A stretch of DNA of 64,000 bases from Paracamarosporium sp. OC-R06-R3. Its lineage: Eukaryota > Ascomycota > Dothideomycetes > Pleosporales > Didymosphaeriaceae. A program made the translations under genes and the position numbers. The notes under the pieces were generated by a model. It ran no database searches. It was not told where the DNA came from and saw only the letters and a list, made by a program, of their open reading frames with translations. Positions 1,852-47,618 of the stretch are shown here, piece after piece (position 1 is the first letter of the stretch; each line of letters opens with the position of its first letter). Location of the stretch: positions 1 to 64,000 of the forward strand of contig JACVRA010000056.1 of NCBI GenBank assembly GCA_019828545.1, read 5' to 3'.

Positions 1852-2748
1852 GCTTGACTCCTTGAATGGTATGCATGCTCAGCTTAGAAGGAATATATGT
1901 TGTTGCTATGGTCAACTGACCTAGGAACTAGGGTCTCGTTGAAGGAAAATATTTCAGGATCGAGAACAGGAGGGAATCGCACGGGATAGGCGTAATCATA
2001 TCATTCCATTCCTAAAGTTACAGTATCTACTGAGACACCAATACAACTTGATCCGCTCTCGTGTATGATTAGAATCACCCTTAGACCCAGCAGATTCAAG
2101 TGAACTTAAATGCGGCATTTTCACTTTCTATTGCAGGCATTATGAGAATAGGAAAATTTACGAAAACTTAGACTACAAAGATCTAAGACGTTGCCGCACC
2201 AACACCTTAGGCACCGCTGCGTAACAGGCTTGGCATCACAGGACCACTTTCTCTTACATCTTCCACGGAGCAAGACAAAATTCGACAACGAAAGCGTAAA
2301 CAAAGTTGTCGCAATATCATGCAACGCTGCTTGCCCAAACCGCCACATGGAAATCTTCCTGCAACGAGCGTTTCCCGCTACGATATCAGAATAACCTCCC
2401 GTAACGAGGTGAAGCTCAGTTCCCGCTACGGAGCCAGCTAGAATACAATCAGCCGCTGTTTCATCTCCATACCAGAGCCTTCACACAGGCAAGACTGCCA
2501 CAGCTACTACCACTCCTCCTTCAGAGAAGCGACAGAACCCATCTAGACCCCACAAGCCACACGCTCCTCAAAGCAGCCGCCCAACACGCTAACACCCAGC
2601 AACCTATCAAACCTCGAGGAAACACAAGTCTTACGCAGATATTCCCCACTCGCAATCGAAAACACCACAACGTACACCACACCACACCGAATATCCGCCT
2701 TACCTCACAAGCCCAATTCCTTACAGGCCAAACCCTATCCAAGTCCAG
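1852..2748. other. Intergenic, no gene seen
   Basis: About 0.9 kb after the F-box gene. Only short frames on both strands with no recognisable protein, and no RNA gene pattern seen. Confidence 0.5.

Positions 2749-2839
<91 letters not shown>
2749..2839. repeat. (AAC)n microsatellite, about 30 units
   Basis: An uninterrupted AAC trinucleotide run of about 91 bp on the + strand. On the minus strand it would encode a poly-valine run inside a frame with no other protein character, so I treat it as non-coding. Confidence 0.95.
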
Positions 2840-5800
2840 TATGACGTACGAGCGGCAGACACGCTACTCCCCGCCAAGCACACCAACCGAGTAAAAAACA
2901 TAGCTTCGAATCTAGTCTTGCTCTAAGTATAAGCCTTCACCGCCGATCAAAGCGTTACTCGATACTACTGTTGGACATGGCGTCACTGGCTTACTGGGAT
3001 GCGCATCCCGTGCGCTAGCTGGGTACTCGGACACGTGGTTTGTACTGAGCGAGTCCTGTCCGGGGTGCATGTTGGGGCGGGACGGGAGTGTGGTGTTGTG
3101 TGGTAGGGAGGCGGGGAGGCGGGGAGGGAGTGGTGGAGTGTGGTTGTGCTTTGTGTTGGGTGCTTCAGGGTGGTTGGGGTCGGGGTGGGACATATGGTGA
3201 CGGGATATAATGTGGTCTGGGGATTGTTGTGGTTAGATTGATGTGGGAGGGGGCATGGTTGTGCGGAAGTTTGTACGGATGGTGCTTGAGTAGGGGGTAG
3301 TGAAGCTTGAGAGGGGGGGAGGAGGGTAGTCATAGCATTCTGCTGAGGATGAGAGGAGTGGTAGATTTAGGGTCTTGCATGGATAGGATGGCGGAGGTTA
3401 GGGCACGCGGGTTCCTGGGGCGTGGCTGGGATTGTGGGTGGGTTCACGGAGCGTGGGAATGCAGGTTTGATTTATCTGTAAGAGTGTATCGATGCTAGTA
3501 CTATATGATTAATCCCCTACCAATGAGTGTCTCTATGTCCATGCGGATCGACTTTGACACAGTAAAGGTTATTTCCGATGCGGAGAAAGGGTGGTATTTT
3601 ACCTAAATGCGATCCTGGAATACACGGATGTACCTTATTAGTTTATGCTTTGATGCCGCTAAGGCGACCTTCGCTACCATGTACGATTGTAATAGGCCCA
3701 GAGGAATGACCCAATGAATGGACGTTGACATGCACAGGTGTCGGCTGATGAACGTACGACCAACATACCTCGTCTTATTCGAATGTCACTCCACAGCGAG
3801 CCATTCGTCGTCAGGCAGATGCGAGGTTGCAAACAGCGAAGTAACCCAAAGCCAACGCTGATCAGATAATAGAAGCAAATGTGCTAGCCATCACCAGTCC
3901 GACACGTGACTTATGCCTATTAGTCGCCATACACGCTTACTCTAACAAACCTAGGGAGACATGAGTCGCACCACATTTCGTCTGAACCGCATAGGGCATG
4001 GCCTGGTCTGCACCCGCGTCCTCCCCGTCGACCTAAAAGTTAGGCGACGTGGACGCGCTTGTCGAGTGTGTTCGCTTCACCGATCGGCCAATCTAGAGCG
4101 ATCTATGACCTTCCTTCCCGGTAATATACCGCAAACCTGGTCATAACGCGCCCCACGCCCCGATGTTCTGTCTTCTAAGGATTGTACCGGTACATGGTCG
4201 TAGGAATTTGAGATGCAGGAATTCGCGGCAAGGGCGGGTATTTAGGCTGTGTTGGAATGCTGAGTGCGGGCGTGGGTTGGTCTAGCTGTGTTAAATGTAT
4301 GTTTAGAGTGTGATTGTCTGGCGTGGAATGTCTTGTTGCTTGGAAAGAGTGGGTTCAAGGTGAGACTGTATAGACGTTCAAGAATTTACCAACTATTAAA
4401 ATATCCGGCAGTGGTGATGACTATAGCGATAGGACAGCTCGATGAACTCAATGATTGAGGCTGAGACAGGTTTGGCCAGTATCACACGGTACCTACCTTC
4501 CACGGTTAACGATAGCTATGCCTAGCTGTGCATGCAAGTATTGCGCATCGCAATCCAATCTTTTGCGACCAACTTCTCATAGTTAAATTATTTTGGTCAC
4601 CGCGATCACATAATTCGTCCAGTGTCCATCACTCCTACATCTTAGTTTCGGAGGAAAGTATGTTTTTAAACATACTTGCTGGAGAAGACCCACCATTGCG
4701 ATCTTCGACTTGGCTTACCGACGACAGGATAGTAATCCATACGAGTAAGCTGTGACGGTGATGAAGGGTGGTTGTGCTGATGACAAGCTGGCGTGTCTTG
4801 TGAGCCATTTCAACTGCCTCCCAATAATGATCGGCGAATGGACAATGGCTCGAAGGACATATCAATGTACCGGTATATTTCCGTGGATTCTAGTATCAGG
4901 AGAAACGTTTGGATCCTTGTTTTGATCCAGGATTGGTAACACGATGGCGGACTTTGTTCTAATGACGTGGGTTTGACCAATCCCGTTCCGGAGATGCGAT
5001 GCAGTTTGATACGAGCCAGCCCCAGAATAGTAGACTGGGCAGGGTGGTGGTTATAAACCTCCAATTGTTGCACGAACCATCCACTCATTGTCCGTAGCAC
5101 GTAATATCCTTTTTATGGCAGAGAGAAACGATAGGCCCAGGCAGTGTGTTGCTCTTGGCGACAGGTTTGAGTACGAATAAGGACATCAATAATCCTTGAG
5201 AATCCCTTGGAAAGGCATTGGTGGGCTAGCTGTAGCATTGCATCTGAACGTATTTTTCTGTTATTAATCCCTTTGGCCAGTGTGCACTTCGCACAACCTA
5301 ATGCGGCTCAAAACTGATCGAAGGTGAACGGACATACTGTGTCTTGGATGGACAAATGGAAAGTGTGCAGCATTGTTGGACGTAGCGCGCAGGATCCGCA
5401 GGGCAGTGTCGTCTTTGTTTACGGTGTTGGAAGCTGCATGCGTTTGGTTGGAGTTCCATTGTGGCTAAGCCATCGGTTCCTGCCGGGCTGACTTTACACC
5501 CTAGGGTGGTACGGTTTCTCCACGTGGATAACGTCAACATGCGTTATTGAGTATCGATCTTTGCGTCGCTGACCTTTCCTGACCGAGGCGACGCTTCGTA
5601 TGCGGTGTTCAGGGGCCAGATGCAGGAGGATGACTGACAGTTGGCACTGCTTAGCGATGAACATCCACGCTCATGCAGCCGTGGACACGCGAAGTGAGTT
5701 ATTTGAGGGGTTTTGATGCTGCTCCTTCCTCATTCGACCCGCGCTCCCTAAAAGAGCAGGACCAAGGAACATCACGGAGGATGTGGAGAGAAGGGTGCAT

Positions 5801-8283
5801 CGGACGCTTTGGGGGGCCATCCATGTCTTTTAATCCGTTTTCCGTTTTGGTCGGAGCCTCCGATCGGTGTGATCTGTATTGAGAGTTGGAGGACGAGTCG
5901 TGATCGGACAGCCTGCGTAAGGCTGGTTTTGTCACGTGCTCGCATTGCAAATCAGTGCATCTAACAACAAGGTTACAGCTTGTGTTGTTGATCCCGTGCG
6001 GATGTCAAGTTCAGGTGGAACGCCAGGTATCGAGAAACAAAAAGAGAAATTGGTATACGTAGGTGCGCGTTGCCGGGCTGCTAAAGTCAGGAGTGTTCTC
6101 GAACTCTACCAACACTCAGCCAGGCGCCCTGCAGGGATGAACAGCATTCACGAGGGTGCCGCGAAAAAGCAATAAACGGTTGTGCAGTAGCCGATTGGGC
6201 AATGCTTTCGTAGATTCGCGACGGGATTTTTGAGCCTCCGCCACAAGCCTCGCGATTTGCATGAGGATCCCTCCTTCGAGGCTGTCGTGCATATTGAGCA
6301 TGTCTATCGACCCTGGCAATGACCATCATCACCATGACACAATCCACGCGGGGAGCAACGGTCAGGCGAGTGGCTGGCGGATAACGTCCCAGGGTGGGTC
6401 AGACCCTGGAGCTTCCGTACGGCGTACAATACATGCGAGGCTCTCCCCTGCACGCGGCTTAGGTGGTGTAGGGAAAGCTCGTGTGATGATGACGAGATAA
6501 GCGTGGAATGGATGGGAACAGCCCCAAACGACTAGCCGTTGTTGTGCTGCGATGATCATGTGTGCCATGCTGCACAACGCGAAGACTTCTGGAGTAGCGC
6601 ATGTTGCAGAAGGCGGCAGTGTGGGTGTTCGCAAACGACAAGGTGGCTCTGGGAGAGCGATGGCAGGCTGGGATGGGCAAAAGGTGGTCTCGGGCTTCCA
6701 GAAACCTTCCGTGCCTCCAAGATTCGCGTGCGCAAGCAAGGGTGCCCTGGCAGGCACATCCGCTGAATCGATGCTCGTCACTATAACGGATGCTGTATAG
6801 ATCGCTCCTCAGGCTGTCGCGGGTTGCACAGAGGCGGAGAAACAGAAAGCCTCTCGCGCCGATGGGCTGTCACCGTCCTGATTGATGCCAGGCGACGTCG
6901 AGCTCGCAGATGGACACGTACGTGCTCTGCCCCTGCAACCGACCTTCAGCACTGTATGTACGTATCAAAATTAGGTTGCCCTTTTGGCGCGCAAGACGGC
7001 GAAGATGCCGGATCTCCATCCATGCATCCTCCACTGTCGCCGTTTCTCCTTTGCGCCGCGGGGAGCCTCTGCTGCACGGTCGGTGTCACACGGCCATCAG
7101 GCAACGGACGTTCTGTGACACAGGGCGCGGTTTGGAGCACTCAGGCTGTGAGGCCGTCGAGAGCACGACGCCGCTGATACGTGGGAGGGCGATTCTGACG
7201 CGGGCCCGTCGAGGGAGCTGGCCACCCAGTTGTGGCATGGACGGGTAAATGGCATGCGCAAGCGGAAATTTACACGCCTTGTCAGCGTCCCAGCACGGCG
7301 TCGGTACTTGGAGTCCCACAGCGCAGGATGGGCGGGCCGACATATGCGAATGAGAGGCGGCTGGTTGTTCTGGGCCCAACCACCCTATGGTGCTGTGCGG
7401 ACCCAGACGACGGAAGGGGTGAAGATGTGTGCGGCGAGCCATCGTCGCCCAGCGGCCGGGGACAAGGTGGACGACGTGGCCAGACAGGCATAGCACCGCC
7501 GAGGGCATCGGACGCGCGAGCTGAGGGCGGTGGGCCGGGGGCGCCAGCGAATGCAGCAGCATGAGGGAGGCGTCGACAGCCGCGAGAGCATTAGCCTGTC
7601 CCGCGGGTGCTCCGGGGTCGTGTTGGTCCCCAAGGATTTGCGGACGGTGAAGCACGTGACCTTGCAAAAGGTACTAGCGCGGCGGTGGCAGCCATTTCGT
7701 AATTTCTCGTGTTTGTCCTCGCGCTCCCATTCACAGCACTCCTCTCGCGTCTGGATCAGCACTGGATCAGAAAGCCCCGGGACGGTGCAGCGGCCGCGAA
7801 CACAAGGCAGGCCAGAGCACGCACCCAGCGACCCCTACTAACCGCGCCGGCCAGGCCTAGCGAGCGAGCGAGCGCTGCAGAGGCATCCCAGCACCGCAAC
7901 TTGGCCAGCAACATTTTCGCGCACCGCCACGGCTCCCTCACGCCGCTGAGGCGGGCTTCTTCCTCTTGCCTGCGCGCTGCCTGCCCTCGCGCGCACCGCC
8001 CGCTCCCAGCGCTCCTCTCCCAGCGCCCTCTCCGGCCTCCAGCCCGCAGCCCGCGTCCGCTCGTCGTCGCCCACGCCCACCCTCGCGCAGTGCTACAGCA
8101 CCTGCAGCCGCCGGCGCGCAACCGAGGCACCCCCCTGGCCTCGCCTCCTAGCTCGATTCGCCAAACCCATCACGCCTCGTCTGTTGGCGTCCGAAGTCTT
8201 AACTCTCGCTTGAGCGGTGCCCTTTCGCAAAGGCAGCACAGCTTCGCAGGGTGCGTGCCTGCCCGTTGCGCGGTGGGACGTCC
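2840..8283. other. Gene-poor tract upstream of the Zn2Cys6 gene
   Basis: About 5.4 kb with no frame I can defend as a gene. It holds a G-rich segment (about 3060-3460). From about 6.8 kb the GC content rises towards the next gene, and the last 600 bp are C-rich and probably promoter and 5' leader of the Zn2Cys6 gene. The many overlapping frames at 6.2-8.3 kb are what GC-rich DNA gives by chance. Confidence 0.5.
3106..3128 (+). other. Potential G-quadruplex
   Basis: Four runs of 3-4 G separated by loops of 4, 4 and 1 bases (GGG at 3106, GGGG at 3113 and 3121, GGG at 3126), inside a wider G/T-rich tract. It meets the usual G3+N1-7 pattern. No gene is close enough to assign a role. Confidence 0.6.
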
Positions 8284-27568: not shown

Positions 27569-29142
27569 CTCGAGATAAAATGATGGATAGTCTATTAAAT
27601 CAGCTTTCGCTACTCAATAGTTTCGTGCTCATCGACTCATCGATGTGTCTGAAGCGTGTTTCCATTCTACACTAACTATGCTCGTTAACAGGATGTTTGT
27701 GGCTAATGTAATCCTACCAGAAGATCATGAGATATTTGGAAGTCTCTTTCTCCACGAGGTACGTCCATCAACAGGATACACGTAGCCAGACGAACAAAAT
27801 CCTACCAGAATATCTTGATAACGCGGAACTCGGGTATGTATACATCACACGAGCGGGTACGTTCGTCCCAAGCTCAATTCAATGCGAGAAATGCGACAAT
27901 GTACCCATCAGTCTCCAGATCAACCTACCTGAGTTGAACTTAGCGTGTCTGACTTTACCCATGTAGGAAAGGTACTTGTATACAGTACAGCCGAGGTAAA
28001 ACAAAACTCAGGTTAGGTCGACCTGCTAACGCACAATGTATGAGGGAAGTACTTCGGTTACTGGATACGTGGGTTATGATGGGGGAAGAAAAGAAGTAAT
28101 GCGTGAGGTTGTGCGCGCATATGAGCGTTATTTTGGTAGGGGCGGGAGCGTGCGTATGCGCGTGCTATACGGTCTATACGATGCACGCCTCGCTTCGACT
28201 TACCTGCCAGCCGGGCGGTTAGGCGAGCAATGAAACGAATTCTACCTCGTTATTCGTCGCTTGTTCGTTTCGGAAATTTATACGCATGGGGTCGGAGCGA
28301 GGGGTTACTCTATGGAGGAATAGATAGTAGGGTGCCACATGCGAATCGGGGTTATGAGGAAGGGAAAGCGATGCGAGATTACTTGCTAGCGGCGGGTACG
28401 GGGATGGTGGGGAAAATAAGGGTAGGGAAGGGTGGTCTGGGTTTCGGCGGGTAGCCTAGTTGGTAGTGGAGGTATAACCGTACATACACATACGATCGCA
28501 TCTCCCACGAGGGCGAACTGTACACTGTCGCCATGTCTACGGCAGCACCTACACGTCCATCTCCCTGGTGACATGATTTGATTCTGCAAATCCCATGCAA
28601 AACGGCACCCAGAAACATTTGTTTCTGCCCCCGCACAAGCGAGCCGATCCCCTGACCGGCCTGGCCCCGACGGTTCGTCTAAACGGTCGGATCATCACCG
28701 CGTGATTGGTTGGGGCGACCCTGCTTCTCTGGTCATCTGCTGAGGCGAGCTGCTCGGGACGACAGTATTCCGGACGTCGGTTCGAGGCCTGCGTCGTGCG
28801 TCGATGGACCGTGTGCGTGCTGTTGGAGAAGGTGGTGAGTTCATCTCGCGTGCAGGCGAGAAGGGGTGGCGAGGGGTTGGCAGGGTATGTGAAGGCGTGC
28901 TTTTGCGGGAGAGGCTGCTCTCTTCTACTCTTCACAGATTTGCGAACTTCTGAGCCTGAAGTTTGGTGACAGTTACGACTTGACAACTAGCTTATCGAGT
29001 GGTGTTATTTGAAGATTGACTTTGGGTTTTGGTCTTGGTCTTGGAAGCTGGGTGTTACGTGGAACACTGCATTGGGTTTATCCGGATTGTCCTTTTCGGC
29101 CGCTGCGTTGTGCGCCCGACGTAACGGCGCGCAGAGATATCC

Positions 29143-31012
29143 ATGGGCGTTCCAGAGTCGGAAGCGAATGGTCGCGTCACCGAGACCGAAGAAGACAATC
29201 AGACAGTGGGCGACGAAAAGCAAACAACAAGGAAAGAGATCGCGCCAAATGGAACGGTAGGAAGCGAAGAGGAGACTGAGGTGGCGAATAACGGCACCCA
29301 TACTGTGACGCGGTCGGACAAGAACGAGATAGCGGCAGAACCAGAAACGATACAAAACGTGGATGGAGAGAAAACGCCCGCGCAAGCTGACGCCGAAGAG
29401 GCGCAAGAAGAGCCGGAAGATGAATCGAAATACCTATCTGGATTCAAGCTCGGTATCCTCTCCGTAGGACTCTGTCTAACGACCTTCGTCATCGCCCTGG
29501 ACAACACCATCATCGCCACCGCGATCCCCAAAATCACAACCGTGTTCAACTCTCTAAACGATGTAGGCTGGTACGGATCGTCCTATTTGCTCACCACCTG
29601 TTCACTGCAGCCGAGCTTTGGAAGGATTTACACTTACTTCGATGTCAAATACACCTACCTCTTCGCGTTGGTCCTGTTCGAAGTCGGCTCTGTCATCTGT
29701 GCTGCAGCAACTAGCAGTCCCATGTTCATTGTTGGTCGAGCAATCGCCGGAGCTGGTGCTGCAGCGCTCTTCTCAGGAGGCATGACCATTATCGGTTATT
29801 CAGTGCCTTTGCGCAAGCGTGCCATCTACATCGCAGCCCTGTCGTCCATGTTCGGTATCGCCAGCGTGGTTGGACCACTCCTCGGAGGCGCTCTTACCGA
29901 CAAAGCCTCCTGGAGATGGTGTTTCTGGATAAATCTACCATTTGGTGGAGTTTGCTTGGTAGTTGTATTCTTCTTTTTTTCCAACCCAGTGCGTCAATAC
30001 AGCCACGTATCATTCAAGCAGCGGATGAAGGAGGTCGATCTAATTGGTGCTGTATTCCTCATCTGCGCCATCGTGTGCTTATTGCTCGCGTTACAATGGG
30101 GTGGACAAGTTTATCCATGGAAGAATTCTAAAGTCTGGGGAAATCTGCTGGGTTTTGGGCTGATCATCAGTGTCTTCATTGGGACTCAAGTCTGGCAGAA
30201 AGACCGGGCGACCATCCCACTGCGCATCATAAAGCAGCAGACCGTACTCGTGAGCTGCGTCTTCACAGCATTCCTCTCCATGGCACTGTACACGTAAGCC
30301 CCCTAACTCTCCTCTACGCCACTCTTCTGATCACTAAATTCTTCACAGCCACATTTTCTACCTCCCCTTCTATTTCCAAGCCTCCAAAGGCACATCAGCG
30401 GAAGGTTCCGGCATCCGCACTATCGCCTACCTTTGTAGCATAACTCTCTCCTCCGTCGTAATCGGCGGCCTGATCACTGTAGTCGGCTACTACGCGCCCT
30501 TCATGTGGGTGGGCAGTGCCCTCTTCGCCGTCGGCGCAGGCATGCTATACACACTCAAAATCAACTCCTCCGCCGCACAATGGATCGGCTACCAAATCAT
30601 CGCGGGCCTCGGCGCAGGCGCCTCGGTGCAAATCCCCTTTGTCGCCGTCCAAGTCGTAACTTCCACAAAAGACATGCCCACCGCCAATGCGCTCGTCATG
30701 TTTTTCAATTCGTTGGGCGGCGCAATTGCTATCTCCATCGCGCAGAACATCTTTATTAACAGCCTTGCGAAGGAAATTCCCAAGTATGCGCCTGAGGTCA
30801 ATCCGAGGGTTGTTATTACTGCGGGTGCGACGTATGTAAGGATGGTGGTGCCAGTGGAGTATTTGGCGGGTGTGCTGGAGGCGTATACGAAGGCTATTAC
30901 GACGGCTATGGTGTTGAGTATTGCAACGGCAGTGATTGCGTTTTTGGCGAGTTTGGGCATGGAGTGGAAGAGTATTAAGGGGAAGAAGATTATACCTGCT
31001 GGTGGGGGGTAG
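29143..31012 (+). CDS. MFS drug-type transporter, DHA2-like
   Basis: Exons 29143-30293 and 30349-31012 (55-bp intron, GTAAGC..TTCACAG) give 604 residues. About 98 acidic, hydrophilic residues precede the first membrane helix (LGILSVGLCLTTFVIALDNTIIATAIP). The order of motifs fits 14-helix DHA2 exporters: GWYGSSYLLTTCSLQPSFGRIY, GRAIAGAGAAALFSGG, GPLLGGALTDKASWRWCFWINLP. It should be a proton-coupled exporter in the plasma or a vesicle membrane; the substrate is unknown. Such pumps often accompany secondary-metabolite genes, and the RiPP-like pair lies about 5 kb downstream, but two or more unrelated genes intervene, so any link is speculative. Confidence 0.9.
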
Positions 31013-36064: not shown

Positions 36065-36868
36065 TTATGCATCGTCGCTGGCCGGAAGAATGTTTGTTGC
36101 ACGGTACCAGGGGGCAAATTCAGTACGCTTCTCCTCAGGTGCTTCAACGTCACGCTTTTCGTCGCTAGCCGGGAGAATGTTCGTTGCACGGTACCAAGGG
36201 GCGAACTCTGTGCGCTTCTCCTCAGGTGCTTGAATGTCACGCTTCTCGTCGCTAGCCGGGAGGATGTTGGTTGCACGGTACCAGGGAGCAAACTCTGTAC
36301 GCTTCTCTTCGACATCGCGCTTCTTCTCATCGCTCGCCGGAAGGATATTAGTCGCGCGGTACCAAGGAGCAAATTCGGTACGCTTCTCCTCAACGTCACG
36401 CTTTTCGTCGCTGGCCGGAAGAATGTTAGTCGCGCGATACCAGGGAGCGAACTCTGTGCGTTTCTCCTCAACCTCCCGCTTCTCGTCGCTCGCCGGAAGG
36501 ATGTTTGTCGCACGGTACCAAGGAGCAAACTCAGTACGCTTCTCCTCTACTGAGCGCTTCTTGTCATCGCTCGCCGGAAGGATGTTTGTCGCACGGTACC
36601 AAGGAGCAAATTCGGTGCGCTTCTCCTCAGGCGCTTCAACGTCACGCTTTTCGTCGCTAGCCGGGAGAATATTCGTTGCCCGGTACCAGGGAGCAAACTC
36701 TGTGCGCTTCTCTTCTACAGAGCGCTTCTTGTCGTCACTGGCTGGTAGGATATTGGTCGCGCGGTACCAAGGAGCGAACTCGGTGCGCTTCTCAGTTTTG
36801 GCGACAGGAGCAGCAGCTCCAAGCGCAGACAGGAGTGCTACAGCACTGACGACTTCAACGAAACGCAT
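36065..36868 (-). CDS. Kex2-processed repeat precursor, nine identical peptides
   Basis: 267 residues from the ATG at 36868, no intron. Residues 1-20 are a signal peptide ending GAAA, followed by PVAKTEKR. Then come nine copies of one 16-residue block, TEFAPWYRATNILPAS, always followed by D. Each copy is preceded by Lys-Arg; the links are short acidic spacers (SVEEKR, DVEEKR, EVEEKR, DVEAPEEKR, DIQAPEEKR). The last copy ends at the stop without KR. This is the layout of fungal Kex2-processed repeat proteins, which yield alpha-type pheromones or dikaritin RiPPs such as ustiloxin. The absence of Cys and the UstYa-type gene 1.2 kb away favour a RiPP precursor. A pheromone or surface-active repellent-type peptide remains possible. 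Secretory-pathway processing is expected. Confidence 0.9.
   Translation of the reverse strand: MRFVEVVSAVALLSALGAAAPVAKTEKRTEFAPWYRATNILPASDDKKRSVEEKRTEFAPWYRATNILPASDEKRDVEAPEEKRTEFAPWYRATNILPASDDKKRSVEEKRTEFAPWYRATNILPASDEKREVEEKRTEFAPWYRATNILPASDEKRDVEEKRTEFAPWYRATNILPASDEKKRDVEEKRTEFAPWYRATNILPASDEKRDIQAPEEKRTEFAPWYRATNILPASDEKRDVEAPEEKRTEFAPWYRATNILPASDDA
36077..36784 (-). repeat. Coding minisatellite, nine units of 78-87 bp
   Basis: The nine core-encoding blocks of the precursor, from core 1 (36737-36784) to core 9 (36077-36124). The units are the same in protein but differ in DNA: between cores 1 and 9, 13 of 16 codons differ, all at the third base. Confidence 0.95.
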
Positions 36869-38040
36869 CTTGCGGCTTGAAAGAAATAAGGAGTTGGTTA
36901 GGTAAGGGGAAGAAATGTGGTGTGACCTTCACGGCTGACGTACCACGAGAGACAACCTATGCACTTATATACGGCAATCTGGATGGACACCACTGACGCT
37001 ATGGGTCCCTGTTATCACACCAAAGCACAACCGACTGTATGACCGCTTTCACTCGTGCGTCAGCGGACCCGGCGGTCACTGCATGGAAGACCAATTCGCC
37101 CATCGTGCGTAGGGATGTCAAATTCTGGAGATCGACAGGAGGACGTGTGCCAATCAACTGGAACAAGACGGTTCAACGCGGCTCGGCTTTCAAGGTGCAA
37201 TGTATCGCGAGTATGCTAAGAGATATCGCCACCGATCGTTGTGGGGTTCTTAGCCACTCACGATGCTGTAGCATGGCCGATAATCAGTTGCCTCGGTTTA
37301 CTATGTTAGAGCAAGATGATGCAAGTGCATGCTGACAGCATCCTTCGAAGCAACCAAGGCGTATGAGGTATGCTTACACGGTGGTACCCCTCATTAACCT
37401 AGAGTCGCCGTCGGTAACCTCGAGGGATTAAATATATGCTGCTTGGCTTATATGTCGATAAATTCGGATCTGGAAGTATTAGCTCATGTTGAAGGTGGTA
37501 GATAGAAGAAAGTGCTAGCAACGTCATGGAGGCGTATAGGAAACATTTTGATTGGGGATTGAGCTTGGTCCGTTAGTTACACGGGAAGTAGAGTCGAGCT
37601 ACAGCGACCTGACCAAATCGGGCAGGTCATGTGTGTACTTACACCGCGTAGATATAAGTCAGCTTAAACGCGAGTTTGCCGGGCTAGGAAGGTGTTTCGA
37701 TATAGGGTTCCGCACATCCCTAGTGATGCTTTGAAAAAGAGTTAAGCGAAGATGTACGATGGCAGTGATACTTGTGCGAAACGTACGCTTAGTCCCAAAA
37801 CGGAATATGCATAATGTGCTATGGATCCTCACGATGCAGCTCGACAGCACTAGCCTTATCTACGGGCCAAATGCGAAGAAGCACGCAATCTTGTGTTATT
37901 CATGGCCTTACTGTACGTAGTGAGACTCGGGTTACTCTATTTGCCACGGCGTTACGGTCCACCTACCGCCGCTCGCAACTTTTGACCTCAAGCCGACAGC
38001 TTCCGAACAGATTCCCTCGACAACTTCATCCAACTCCACC
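36869..38040. promoter_or_regulatory. Divergent region between precursor and UstYa-type gene
   Basis: 1.17 kb between two divergent start codons, without a supported gene. It should contain both promoters and could coordinate the pair. Confidence 0.55.
36964..36971 (-). promoter_or_regulatory. Possible TATA box of the repeat-peptide gene
   Basis: TATATAAG on the minus strand, about 96 bp upstream of the precursor ATG. The position and sequence fit a TATA element of a strongly expressed gene; not proven. Confidence 0.5.
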
Positions 38041-39170
38041 ATGAGATGGTTACAGAAATTTGAATACAGACCCGTGGCCTCTGGCACAAGCCGCGACTCT
38101 ACCTCCGAATCTGATGAAGATGAAACGAAAGGCTTCATCAGTGGAGGACCCGCAAAAGGCAACAAGCACTTCATAATAAGTCGTCAAGTATTGATACTTG
38201 TCTCACTCGTCAACTTGTCCGCCCTCCTCATCTCAGTCAGTCTTTTTGGAGTATGGTTCTACAACAACTACATGGTGCGCAATGCGGCCCTCCGAAGAGT
38301 ATCCGGCTACAGTCCCTTATACGACAGATACACTGTTGAGCTGGAGGACGTGGTCATCAATGGGACTTTCTACCCACCGCAAGAAGGCGGCAGTGTCATG
38401 CGGCATCAGCCTAATCCGAAGGACGACAAGACTTGGGAGGAGTGGGAATTGACACGTGTGTATCCTGTCACCCGCGAAGAGCTCACCAAGATGGGCAAGG
38501 ACTACACCACCGTAGCCAAACTGGAAGACGAAGACTGGGGTCTGGGAGACAATGCGTACGCAGCGATCTTCGACGTTTATCATCAGCTGCACTGCCTGAA
38601 CTCATTGCGGAAGGTTGTGTATGGAGGGTATTGTAAGTCAACCATGATTGCTCTCCAAGACCAAGAGAAGGTTTTTGCTAATCTTTCGTTACACCTAGAC
38701 AATATGAGCCAGGCTAGAGCGGACAGGGTCATGCAGCGCGAGTTGCACATGAACCACTGCTTTGACATCCTACTCCAGACCATACAGTGTTCTGGCAACC
38801 TGGACATGATACCACTGGTCTGGATGTACACCCAGGCGTATCCTTTCGCAGACATGTACGTCACAGCCTCTCTAACCCTAAACTACTCATCATTGCCCTC
38901 TTCTTGCGAACATTTCTCACACCACCTTACAGGTCCATAAACAAGAAATGCCACAACTTCGACAAGTTCACCGACTGGCGCAGAGAAAACACCATCGACA
39001 TGGACAAGTACATCGAAGTGATGAAGAAGCCCGAGGCCGACAAACCAGGCATCAAGCAACTACCAGCTGCAGACAAGTACTACGAGTACTGGGGATACGA
39101 CAATCCGAACCACAAACCGGTTTCGGAGGGGGGCCTTGGGCTGCCGCCGGAGCAGGATTCGAACTTGTAG
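38041..39170 (+). CDS. UstYa-family (DUF3328) protein
   Basis: Exons 38041-38632, 38699-38855 and 38933-39170 give 328 residues. The first intron (66 bp, GTAAGT, GCTAAT, CTAG) is a multiple of three and can be mistaken for coding; removing it joins VVYGGYY to NMSQARAD. The second is 77 bp. Residues about 50-73 form one membrane helix after a polar cytosolic start. Two HxxHC motifs, the family hallmark, are at residues 181-185 (HQLHC) and 214-218 (HMNHC). UstYa proteins are oxidases that build ether or other cross-links in dikaritin RiPPs such as ustiloxin; relatives act on other metabolites. It is divergent from the repeat-peptide precursor, its likely substrate. Confidence 0.9.
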
Positions 39171-39658: not shown

Positions 39659-42336
39659 ATGGGGATACAAACGAAATACGTGCTGCTCATTGCCATCGCC
39701 GTGCTGGTGCTCCTGCCGGCAAAAGCGCATGCTTTTGGCGCGGGTAATATCGCGTGAGCTTGGTATCAGTCTCACTTCCAGGACACAAACTAAGGTGTGA
39801 ATAGATCGATCTCTGCGGTTGAGGGCAAGAACTGGCGCCATGGAGATATCGAGGATATGCTCGCTACGGTGGCGTGCTTGAAGGGCCACAAGTGGAAGTC
39901 TATGATGATCAAGGTATGCTCTACTATATATGTCCTTCCGTTGCAGAAGCTAATCTGGGTTCAGCGCGTTTACTTTGGAAACTGGCTCCGAGACTACTCG
40001 CAGGTATGATTACTGTGCTGTCGCTAAAGTGAAGTCTGCTAACAAGGTACAGGCTGTAGACACGGCAACCTTGAGCAAAGTTCAGGTGAGTTTTTTAGTC
40101 TGCAAACGTGCCGTATACCCGACTGACAGCCGCCAAGGGTGACACCATCCGCGTTCTGGTCTGGATTCTTTCCTTTATGTCATTTGGATATGCAACTGGC
40201 GAATTCGAGGTTACTGCAGACCGGCTTGGTGTTTACAGACCGGAAGAGCATATCGACAACCCGAAAGACTACGCCGATAATCAGGATGCTAGGAAATTCG
40301 ACCCCCGCCTGCGCGGGCCTGTTACAGAGGTTGAACTTGCTATCGACCCGGAGACTGGAATGAAGAATTATATCGCTAATGAAAGAGGCTCGTGGGCGAC
40401 GTCTGCAGGCTATGTCAAGTTTTCCTTCGCTCGAGCAATCCACTTCGGCCGCATGTATACACATGGACCCAGCGGAGAACGTGGATCGGAAGCCAATCTT
40501 GCAGAAGCACTCCGATGTCTTGGACAAGGTCTCCATTGCCTCGAGGATTTCGGAGCTCACACCAACTACACCGAGCTTGCCTTGCGGGAACTAGGTTACT
40601 CGAATGTGTTCTCTCATACAGGAACCCAGACCCAGATTAACCTCCGTGGCAAACACGTCTACCCACTTGTGACCGGGACATTTGGAGGAGTCGACTTCTT
40701 CCATTCTGTGCTAGGCGAAGCGACGGACCATATCACGCAATCTGAAGTTGACGAGATGAACACAACGCTCTCGGACGCTTTAACAAGCAATAAGAAGGGT
40801 AGCAGCGGCAGCTGTTCGGCCCTTACTGATGTCCTTGGAAAGGTCCCTGGAACCAGCGGTTTGATCCAGGAGGCTCAGGCTCTTCAAGCCGCTTCTGATG
40901 CACAAGCTTCCGCCAACGCAGGGCACGGATATCGAAGCGGGGGCTTCGATGATTATAGTAGTTCCAGGGCTGGTCCTGGGCAACATCAAGGTGCACCGCC
41001 TACCTTTGATGCGCCACCCGGGTCTGTCGGTGGACCGCCAGGACCTGGCATCCCAGGCACAAACACAGACCCAGCAACCATTATCCCCAAGATCTACCCG
41101 ATATTGGAGTTCAGAGACAAGGTGGTCAGGAATATCTCTGCGATAATCGAGAAGATTCCTGGTTTAGAGAAGCTCATTGAGACGATCACTGAGCGAGTGA
41201 CACTCTTCGTACTGTCCTTGTTGGCACCATTCGTCATGCCAATCATCAAGACTGCCTCGGAGTCTCTAAAGCAAGGCTCTTCCACGGTCATCGACTCCGC
41301 AGCAAAGCACCAGTTCGAAGTTTGGACAAACCCCCATTCCTCCGACCCAACCCACAGCATGCTCTCAAAAGACCACTTCTCCAACGTTCTCAACGCGCCC
41401 GCCGGTCAGGTCGCAGTTTCGATACTGCAATTCGTAGCACCACGCGTATTATACGCTTTTGACCATCCCGATGTGCCCGTCGACCAGGTTCTCAGCGACT
41501 GCATGCAGGTCTTCCACCACCCCGCGCTGCGTAACCAAAACAGCGAGATCCACAGGAGCATGTTCTCCGTCGTTGAAAAGTGGGCACACAATTACCGTGG
41601 CCGAGATCTCAACGACGTCCTAAGCTCGGACAGCGTACGAGCAGGCAAGAACCACAGTGGCGGCAACGACCACTCCCACGGATCCGGTCACGGTGCGGCA
41701 GGCGTATCGTCATTCACGAGCCACAGCCACGGAGGTGGCTCCCACGGCGGCGGCTCTCACGGCGGCGGCCACCAACAATCGCACTCAGGCGGCGGATACG
41801 GCCAGCACTCTTCGCACTCCGGCAGCAGCGGCGGCGGTCTCCTCGGCAGCCTGGCTGGAAACCTGCCCGGCGGCCTAGGCAACAAGCTCAATCCCGCGCT
41901 CAACATGTTCAGCAGCAAGCGCGAAGGCCCCGACGACTTCAACCCCTCAGCACCGCAGTCCGGCGCCCCCTCATACGAGCACTCGACGCCCTACCAGCCC
42001 TCTCCGTCGCCCCAGCCCACGCACGACTGGGGCTCCTTCCAGCCGTACCAGTCCTCGTACGCGGGCGGTCAAGCGGGCGGTGCCCCTGAATACAATGCTC
42101 GGCCGCCTGCAGGTGGAGATAGCTGGGGGGATCAGGGCCAGTATGCCGGGGGCCATGGCGCAGAACCGAGTTATACGGTGCCGACGGCGTATCAGCAGGG
42201 GTATGAGAATTATGGGCAGAGCAGTGGGTATGGGCAGCAGCAGCAGGGTGGATATGGTGGATATGGACAGGGACAGGGACAGGATGAGAGTGGGGGGAGG
42301 CAGTGGGGTGCTGGGGGTGGGAATAATGTGTGGTAG
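39659..42336 (+). CDS. het-c: HET-C family protein
   Basis: Five exons: 39659-39753, 39805-39913, 39965-40003, 40053-40085 and 40138-42336, giving 824 residues. The start is a signal peptide (MGIQTKYVLLIAIAVLVLL..AHA) followed by FGAGNIASISAVEGKNWRHGDIEDML. RVYFGNWLRDYSQAVD, VLSFMSFGYAT-type, and RPEEHIDNPKDYAD blocks are typical of HET-C. A His/Asp-containing GLHCLEDFGAHTNYTELAL block lies near residue 210. From about residue 555 on, the protein is Gly/Ser/His-rich, then Pro/Gln/Tyr-rich. HET-C is a plasma-membrane or secreted protein whose alleles control heterokaryon incompatibility in Neurospora; in most species the allelic role is untested. The short exons 2-4 are supported by restored family sequence. 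Confidence 0.9.
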
Positions 42337-46622: not shown

Positions 46623-47618
46623 ATGCCGTCCGACCCCAAAGTAAAGCAACAAGCGCTCAGCAGAGAGCTCTCCGAGCCGCCTAAAGACCCAGGTACCTTC
46701 GAGGACATCCCACGAGTGCGAAGCATAGCCGGCGACCTAGGCTCTGCGTACATCTTCCCCTTTCCTCACCCACTCCATCCCCGCTAACCCCCTCGCCATA
46801 GACGCGTAAAAAACAAAGTCATAATCGTCACGGGCGCAAACTCACCCATTGGCATCGGCCGCGCAAGCACGCACCAATTCGCGCGCCACGGCGCAAAAGC
46901 AATCTACATATGTGACTTTGCGGATTCGCATCTCGCGACGCACAAGCGCGAGCTCTCGGCTTTGTATCCGTCCGTGGAGATCCACACGCGGGTGTTCGAC
47001 GCGGGGGACGAGGCGGCCGTGAAGGGTATATGCGAAGAAGCAGTTGCCACCTACGGGCGGCTGGACATCTTTTTCGCGAACGCGGGGATTAGTAGTAGGA
47101 AAGTGTTTTGGGAGGAGGATAGCGAGGGGTTTATGAAGATGCTGCGGACGAATACGTTGAGTGTGTTTCTGGCGGCGAAGTATGCGAGTCGGGCGATGCT
47201 GAGGACGTCGGCGGAGAAGCCGTACCCGGGGGGTGCGATTGTGGCGACGGCTTCGGTGGCTGGGTTGAGGTCTAATGCTGGGCCGACGGATTACTCTGCT
47301 AGTAAGGCTGCTGTGATTAGTTTGATGCAGACGTGTGCGTATCAGCTTGTGGGTACGGGGATTCGGTGTAATGCAGTTTGTCCGGGGTTGATTGAGACGG
47401 GTATGACGAAGAGCACGTATGATGCGGCGAGGGCACGTGGTAGTGAGGGCAAGATAGGGCAGTTGAACCCGTTGCGACGGGGTGGAGTGGCGGATGAGAT
47501 AGCGAGGGCGGTCTTGTTCCTTGGGAGCGATGAAGCGAGTTATGTGAATGGGCAGGCGTGGGCAGTTGATGGAGGCCTGTCAGCGGGTCTACCGTTTGTG
47601 CCGGGGAAGTTAGCATGA
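46623..47618 (+). CDS. Short-chain dehydrogenase/reductase
   Basis: Exons 46623-46747 and 46802-47618 (54-bp intron, GTACAT..GCTAAC..CATAG) give 313 residues. The Rossmann start NKVIIVTGANSPIGIG (G-x3-G-x-G, residues 53-61), the NAG motif (FFANAGIS), the catalytic Ser region (IVATASVAGLR) and YSASK (Tyr206, Lys210) are all intact. The end, ASYVNGQAWAVDGG, is the usual cofactor-side closing motif. It is a classical SDR using NAD(H) or NADP(H). An Asp after the second strand (YICDFADS) favours NAD(H). The substrate cannot be told. About 42 extra residues precede the Rossmann fold. Confidence 0.9.

Follow-up and report, generated by a model that had tools for sequence, protein, structure and literature searches.

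The closest described systems are the fungal Kex2-repeat precursors (KEPs) that have a UstYa gene nearby. A survey of 1,461 strains reported 7,878 KEPs, of which 22% have a DUF3328 gene among their 15 nearest genes, and the count of such neighbors peaks at the next position (PMC7329392). In the asperipin-2a cluster, AprY is the single UstYa homologue and is held to carry out the cyclization (PMC6514808). UstYa/DUF3328 is also the class-defining enzyme in the current definition of the dikaritins (PMC12048977).

The window (the whole stretch of DNA that was analysed, 64,000 nucleotides from Paracamarosporium sp. OC-R06-R3) contains a pair of genes that resembles these systems. The most likely reading, to which we give a probability of about 0.78, is that the pair is a small dikaritin-type RiPP locus, in which a UstYa-type oxidase would cross-link peptides cut from a repeat precursor.

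The precursor and its nine cores

The precursor gene (36065..36868, minus strand), found by ORF and repeat analysis, has one exon and encodes 267 amino acids with nine identical TEFAPWYRATNILPAS cores. Its first 20 or so residues (36809..36868, minus strand) look like a signal peptide, being hydrophobic with an Ala-rich end that closes on GAAA; the boundary was set by eye. The array from the first through the last core occupies 36077..36784 (minus strand), and its spacers carry KR or KKR sites. All nine copies are preceded by KR, and eight are followed by a Kex2-type site; D(D/E)K(K)R comes after these eight, and DDA and the stop codon close the ninth. An earlier note on this DNA had described a secreted precursor with nine identical KR-flanked peptides; the peptides are as it described them, and secretion is suggested by the signal-like N-terminus, as judged by eye.

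The spacers are short and acidic and vary in length and sequence, while the core is invariant. At the DNA level, the nine copies of the core are all distinct from each other, differing in pairs by 2 to 13 of 48 bases. Fifteen columns of the 48-nt core are variable, and every one of them is a third codon position. The minimal changes among the copies are all synonymous (21/21), compared with 34 of the 144 possible single changes (p ~7e-14), and therefore the core peptide is under purifying selection.

The KR-delimited unit of the precursor is TEFAPWYRATNILPASDE/DD plus KR or KKR. Cleavage after each KR is predicted to give five fragments of the form TEFAPWYRATNILPASDEKR, two ending in -DDKKR, one ending in -DEKKR and the C-terminal one ending in -DDA. 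Therefore, the predicted Kex2 product, once its basic residues are trimmed, is an 18-mer (19 residues in the last copy) that ends in SDE or SDD. The earlier note had taken a bare 16-mer as the KR-flanked unit. That 16-mer does occur unchanged nine times, but it is the invariant part of a longer predicted fragment, TEFAPWYRATNILPASDE/DD, which has 18 residues after trimming. The truly modified core may in turn be shorter than the 18-mer, as it is in ustiloxin, where Kex2 fragments of 13-14 residues contain the four-residue core YAIG (PMC6514808).

A search of the protein collection gave no match for the core and no relative of the precursor, although it did give relatives of the UstYa partner. 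The core is also absent from the open-access papers searched, but it may be listed in supplementary tables of the KEP surveys. These results agree with the earlier note, which knew of no named product with this sequence.

The UstYa partner and its surroundings

The precursor (minus strand) and the UstYa gene (plus strand) are divergent, and their starts are 1,172 bases apart. Presumably both promoters lie in the region between them (36869..38040). The UstYa/DUF3328 gene (38041..39170, plus strand) encodes 328 amino acids in exons 38041-38632, 38699-38855 and 38933-39170, with two GT-AG introns placed by eye; Pfam recognizes UstYa in its unspliced first frame with E=7e-31. The gene is complete, and both HxxHC motifs are intact in the spliced translation, HQLHC at residue 181 (38581..38595, plus strand) and HMNHC at residue 214 (38746..38760, plus strand). 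A divergent UstYa-type gene at 1.2 kb with two such motifs is what the earlier note had claimed. The note also spoke of a one-helix protein, and the AlphaFold2 model of a relative from Paraphaeosphaeria minitans (mean pLDDT 83) has a single N-terminal membrane-length helix at residues 48-78, corresponding to 38182..38274 (plus strand) in the window. The same model places the two HxxHC motifs on two helices (178-193 and 210-229). A fold comparison of the model gave no informative match.

The window protein has 122 relatives at E<=0.001, with 120 among the matches listed. The P. minitans protein is the closest of the 15 that were aligned, with 86% identity. Eight further close relatives are 56-69% identical (the one at 69% is partial), and the six named members of this group come from species that we take to be Pleosporales. 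The other six, at 44-48%, are from two Xylariales-type strains, Pseudomassariella, Bisporella, Metarhizium and Trichoderma. Residues H181, H184, C185, H214 and C218 are invariant across 46 aligned relatives, and N216 and H217 are kept in at least 90% of them. The second motif is HxNHC in 16 of 16 rows (the window protein and its 15 relatives). Among 23 other UstYa copies compared from the same genome, it is HxDHC in 13 and HxNHC in none.

Profile searches found 39 tyrosinase matches and six S41 peptidase matches in the genome, at least 50 for Methyltransf_25 (50 of 104 candidates scored) and at least 28 for Methyltransf_23 (28 of 82 candidates scored), and none of these is on this contig. Along the contig, about 108 kb separates the window gene from the nearest other UstYa match. 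As far as tested, then, the locus is minimal, as the earlier note had also stated. A kexin-type gene is present in the genome (one P_proprotein match, E=1.9e-28).

Pfam scans of the surroundings covered 28 chosen frames of the window, including the precursor and the UstYa gene, and several had no match. The clear neighbors are mostly housekeeping genes, including a Syf1/CRNKL1-type HAT-repeat protein, Prp31, eIF3h, Sen54, an UNC45-type protein, a PP-loop protein and a mitochondrial carrier. Farther out, at 5-8 kb and with other genes between, come an MFS gene (29125-31009) and a short-chain dehydrogenase gene (46788-47615). Two other features of the window may be mentioned. A Het-C family gene (about 39659-42336, plus strand, E=7e-223, start placed by eye) is downstream of the UstYa gene, and a perfect AAC repeat of 30 copies is present at 2749-2839.

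Precursor and UstYa pairs elsewhere in the genome

The genome (43.1 Mb in 337 contigs) has 75 UstYa exon matches. Grouping these manually gave 48 regions, and two or three UstYa copies occur in some of them. The survey covered 25 of the 48 regions, or 232,762 bases. It began at the window locus and took the strongest UstYa matches first, except that L032 was taken out of rank because it is on the same contig. The detector for KEPs accepted open frames of at least 40 residues with a five-residue word in at least three copies and at least three KR/RR sites. A KEP-type precursor was found in 11 of the 25 regions (10 of 24 without the window locus), and in all 11 pairs the precursor and a UstYa gene are transcribed divergently, their matched parts lying about 0.9-3.2 kb apart; positions were entered by hand from the matches. 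Therefore, the precursor and UstYa locus of the window is not special within its own genome. On the window contig (262 kb), UstYa regions occur near 38, 146, 216 and 247 kb, and all four have a KEP precursor.

The repeats differ from pair to pair. The core of the window locus (L022) is joined by the repeat words QWYDLTYIDK in L012, TNFEIDTILDVNR in L014, QYHGKNVVK in L015, NTRVNGSQNYTGPGNG in L017, TYAPLVYVGGLK in L018, DDIWLW in L021, AFPTWIK in L025, VDQAFVNVAYFGL in L031, a NWYTDSASGVAE-like word in L032 and VDEGFSKIIY in L035. L012 has a second UstYa gene, which is not divergent, and in two of the 11 pairs (L017 and L021) the motif scan finds a single HxxHC in the partner protein.

Three observations from other regions can be added. 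Upstream of position 7552 (plus strand) in L017, beside the NTRVNGSQNYTGPGNG repeats but in a different frame, there is a further repeated stretch, which contains two Cys (NTRVGPATNVCYGDWCTT-like); perhaps it is another exon of the same precursor. The DADAAATYAPLVYV-like units at 2252-3001 (minus strand) of L018 resemble, by eye, the conserved KEP motif DADAATXYV[A/V]D (PMC6339444), and the L018 precursor may belong to a known KEP type. In G000:C23:92428-96666, two UstYa matches adjoin tyrosinase matches; clusters of the ustiloxin or phomopsin type characteristically contain both kinds of gene.

How often such precursors occur away from UstYa genes can be gauged roughly. At the density of the UstYa regions, the remaining 53.5 kb of the window should contain about 2.5 KEPs, and the detector found none there; this control is weak. 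The detector also found none in 40 block shuffles, but shuffling by its nature breaks up repeats, so that these gauge only its false alarms. If a hypothetical 50 KEPs were spread evenly over the genome, just 0.27 would fall within the bases read.

These counts bear on the first alternative, namely that the precursor gives a linear secreted peptide, pheromone-like or another signal, while the UstYa neighbor acts elsewhere and is adjacent by coincidence. In its favor, 78% of KEPs have no nearby DUF3328 gene (PMC7329392), UstYa genes are many in this genome, and 14 of the 25 regions have no KEP detectable by the same criteria. Given this abundance and these 14 regions, the UstYa proteins of the genome probably serve other pathways too. 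However, random orientation would give 11 divergent pairs out of 11 with a probability of only 0.25^11, or ~2e-7, if the pairs were independent, which they are not fully, L031 and L035 being related. In addition, mating-factor and pheromone KEPs were reported to lack DUF3328 neighbors with three exceptions (PMC7329392), and a precursor of the fungal alpha-type pheromone kind would likewise be a KEP without such a neighbor, whereas here the UstYa gene is 1.2 kb away. We therefore regard a linear peptide as unlikely.

The pairs can also be compared with each other. A tree of short motif blocks groups the window UstYa with that of L018 (support 0.96), and the cores of the two loci share an aromatic-Ala-Pro start (TYAPLVY and EFAPWY; by eye). 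The UstYa proteins of L031 and L035 also group (support 0.90), and their cores look alike by eye (VDQAF and VDEGF). The blocks are short and core likeness was judged by eye, so these patterns are hints that enzyme and core may evolve together. One could go further and suppose, though with low probability, that UstYa is an old and widely kept chassis (44-86% identity across the 15 aligned relatives, from Paraphaeosphaeria to Trichoderma) whose divergent partner is refilled with different cores, here an adjacent Trp-Tyr core with possibly novel ring chemistry, for example via Trp. We know of no dikaritin with ring chemistry of that kind. If the supposition were true, head-to-head precursor and UstYa units would be modular cassettes that diversify through core swaps.

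The proposed product and its place among known systems

The product of a dikaritin-type locus of this kind would most likely be a small, cross-linked, secreted peptide whose making involves Kex2 and a single UstYa oxidase, like that of asperipin-2a. The precursor would enter the secretory pathway, where Kex2 would cleave after each KR and a carboxypeptidase would take off the basic ends; copies of TEFAPWYRATNILPASDE/DD and short acidic spacer peptides would result. The UstYa-type oxidase would be anchored in the membrane, with the catalytic part and its two HxxHC motifs facing the lumen. It would cross-link the peptide by joining a residue, most likely Tyr7 (perhaps Trp6 or Phe3), to a side chain close by. 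The cross-linked product would then be secreted, with whatever biological role it may have. Tyr is present in 65.6% of DUF3328-linked KEP cores compared with 38.2% of the others (PMC7329392). For Trp, which the window core also contains, the same survey shows no enrichment among DUF3328-linked KEPs (20.5%, compared with 24.5%), and this counts against the proposal.

A second alternative is that the UstYa protein performs another oxidation on the core, such as hydroxylation or chlorination, and forms no ring. In cyclochlorotine biosynthesis, hydroxylation and chlorination by DUF3328 proteins have been reported (PMC12048977), and sequence alone does not separate such reactions from cross-linking. 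However, cyclization is the reported role of the KEP-linked DUF3328 proteins in ustiloxins, asperipin-2a and phomopsins (PMC7329392, PMC6514808), which makes this alternative rather improbable. Tandem repeats occur in secreted structural proteins too, but that those of the window form a wall or coat protein rather than a peptide precursor is highly improbable, given the KR before every core, the short acidic spacers, the invariant core beside variable spacers and the adjacent UstYa partner.

The locus points to one concrete, unassigned peptide, whose mass can be predicted, and to one candidate oxidase, and it is a very small system for studying the action of a single UstYa protein on a core. 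For linear TEFAPWYRATNILPASDE the calculated mass is 2079.9901 ([M+2H]2+ 1041.0023), and a loss of 2 H or 4 H would shift the doubly charged ion to 1039.9945 or 1038.9867; the SDD form falls at 1033.9945. Of most general interest is the head-to-head layout, common to every pair found in this genome; 11 such pairs in 25 regions suggest a simple rule, which is to seek unannotated fungal RiPP precursors across the UstYa promoter. We found no description of this layout, and the main text of PMC7329392 has no word for it, which is no proof that it is unpublished; a paper that combines DUF3328, KEX2 and "divergent" uses the last word in senses other than gene layout.

With regard to known systems, the likeness to the Umemura 2020 survey (PMC7329392) is a Kex2-repeat precursor beside a DUF3328 gene and a core that contains Tyr. 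Venturia inaequalis, with nine dikaritin clusters of DUF3328 genes and signal-peptide repeat precursors in one Dothideomycete genome (PMC9632046), resembles the window in this pairing. Ustiloxin and phomopsin likewise have Kex2-cut repeats and UstYa-family oxidases; however, they have two and five DUF3328 proteins, respectively, and require a tyrosinase (PMC7329392, PMC6514808), whereas the window has one UstYa gene and its contig has no tyrosinase match.

Asperipin-2a (AprA/AprY, Aspergillus flavus) is similar in having a repeat precursor and one UstYa homologue, and its four genes include neither a tyrosinase nor a methyltransferase (PMC6514808). The cores differ, FYYTGY in asperipin-2a and TEFAPWYRATNILPAS(D/E) in the window, and the asperipin cluster holds a transporter and an isoflavone reductase, whereas the nearest candidates in the window, the MFS and short-chain dehydrogenase genes, are beyond other genes.

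The older five-gene definition of the dikaritins (Ding 2015, as quoted in PMC12048977) does not accommodate the locus, which has no tyrosinase or S41 match on its contig, no Methyltransf_25/_23 match there among the candidates scored, and no second UstYa match within about 108 kb. The locus does fit the dikaritins as currently defined, with a two-HxxHC UstYa beside the precursor, tandem cores bounded by Kex2 sites and a kexin in the genome. The earlier note had called it a candidate new dikaritin-type locus. The type is supported by the pairing, the UstYa relatives in other fungi, the kexin gene and ten further pairs in the genome, and the novelty does not extend to the kind, which is already represented among the published KEPs. 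The pairing belongs to the KEP-DUF3328 (dikaritin-type) association described in the literature, where the arrangement is reported as common, and it is the locus that is new within it.
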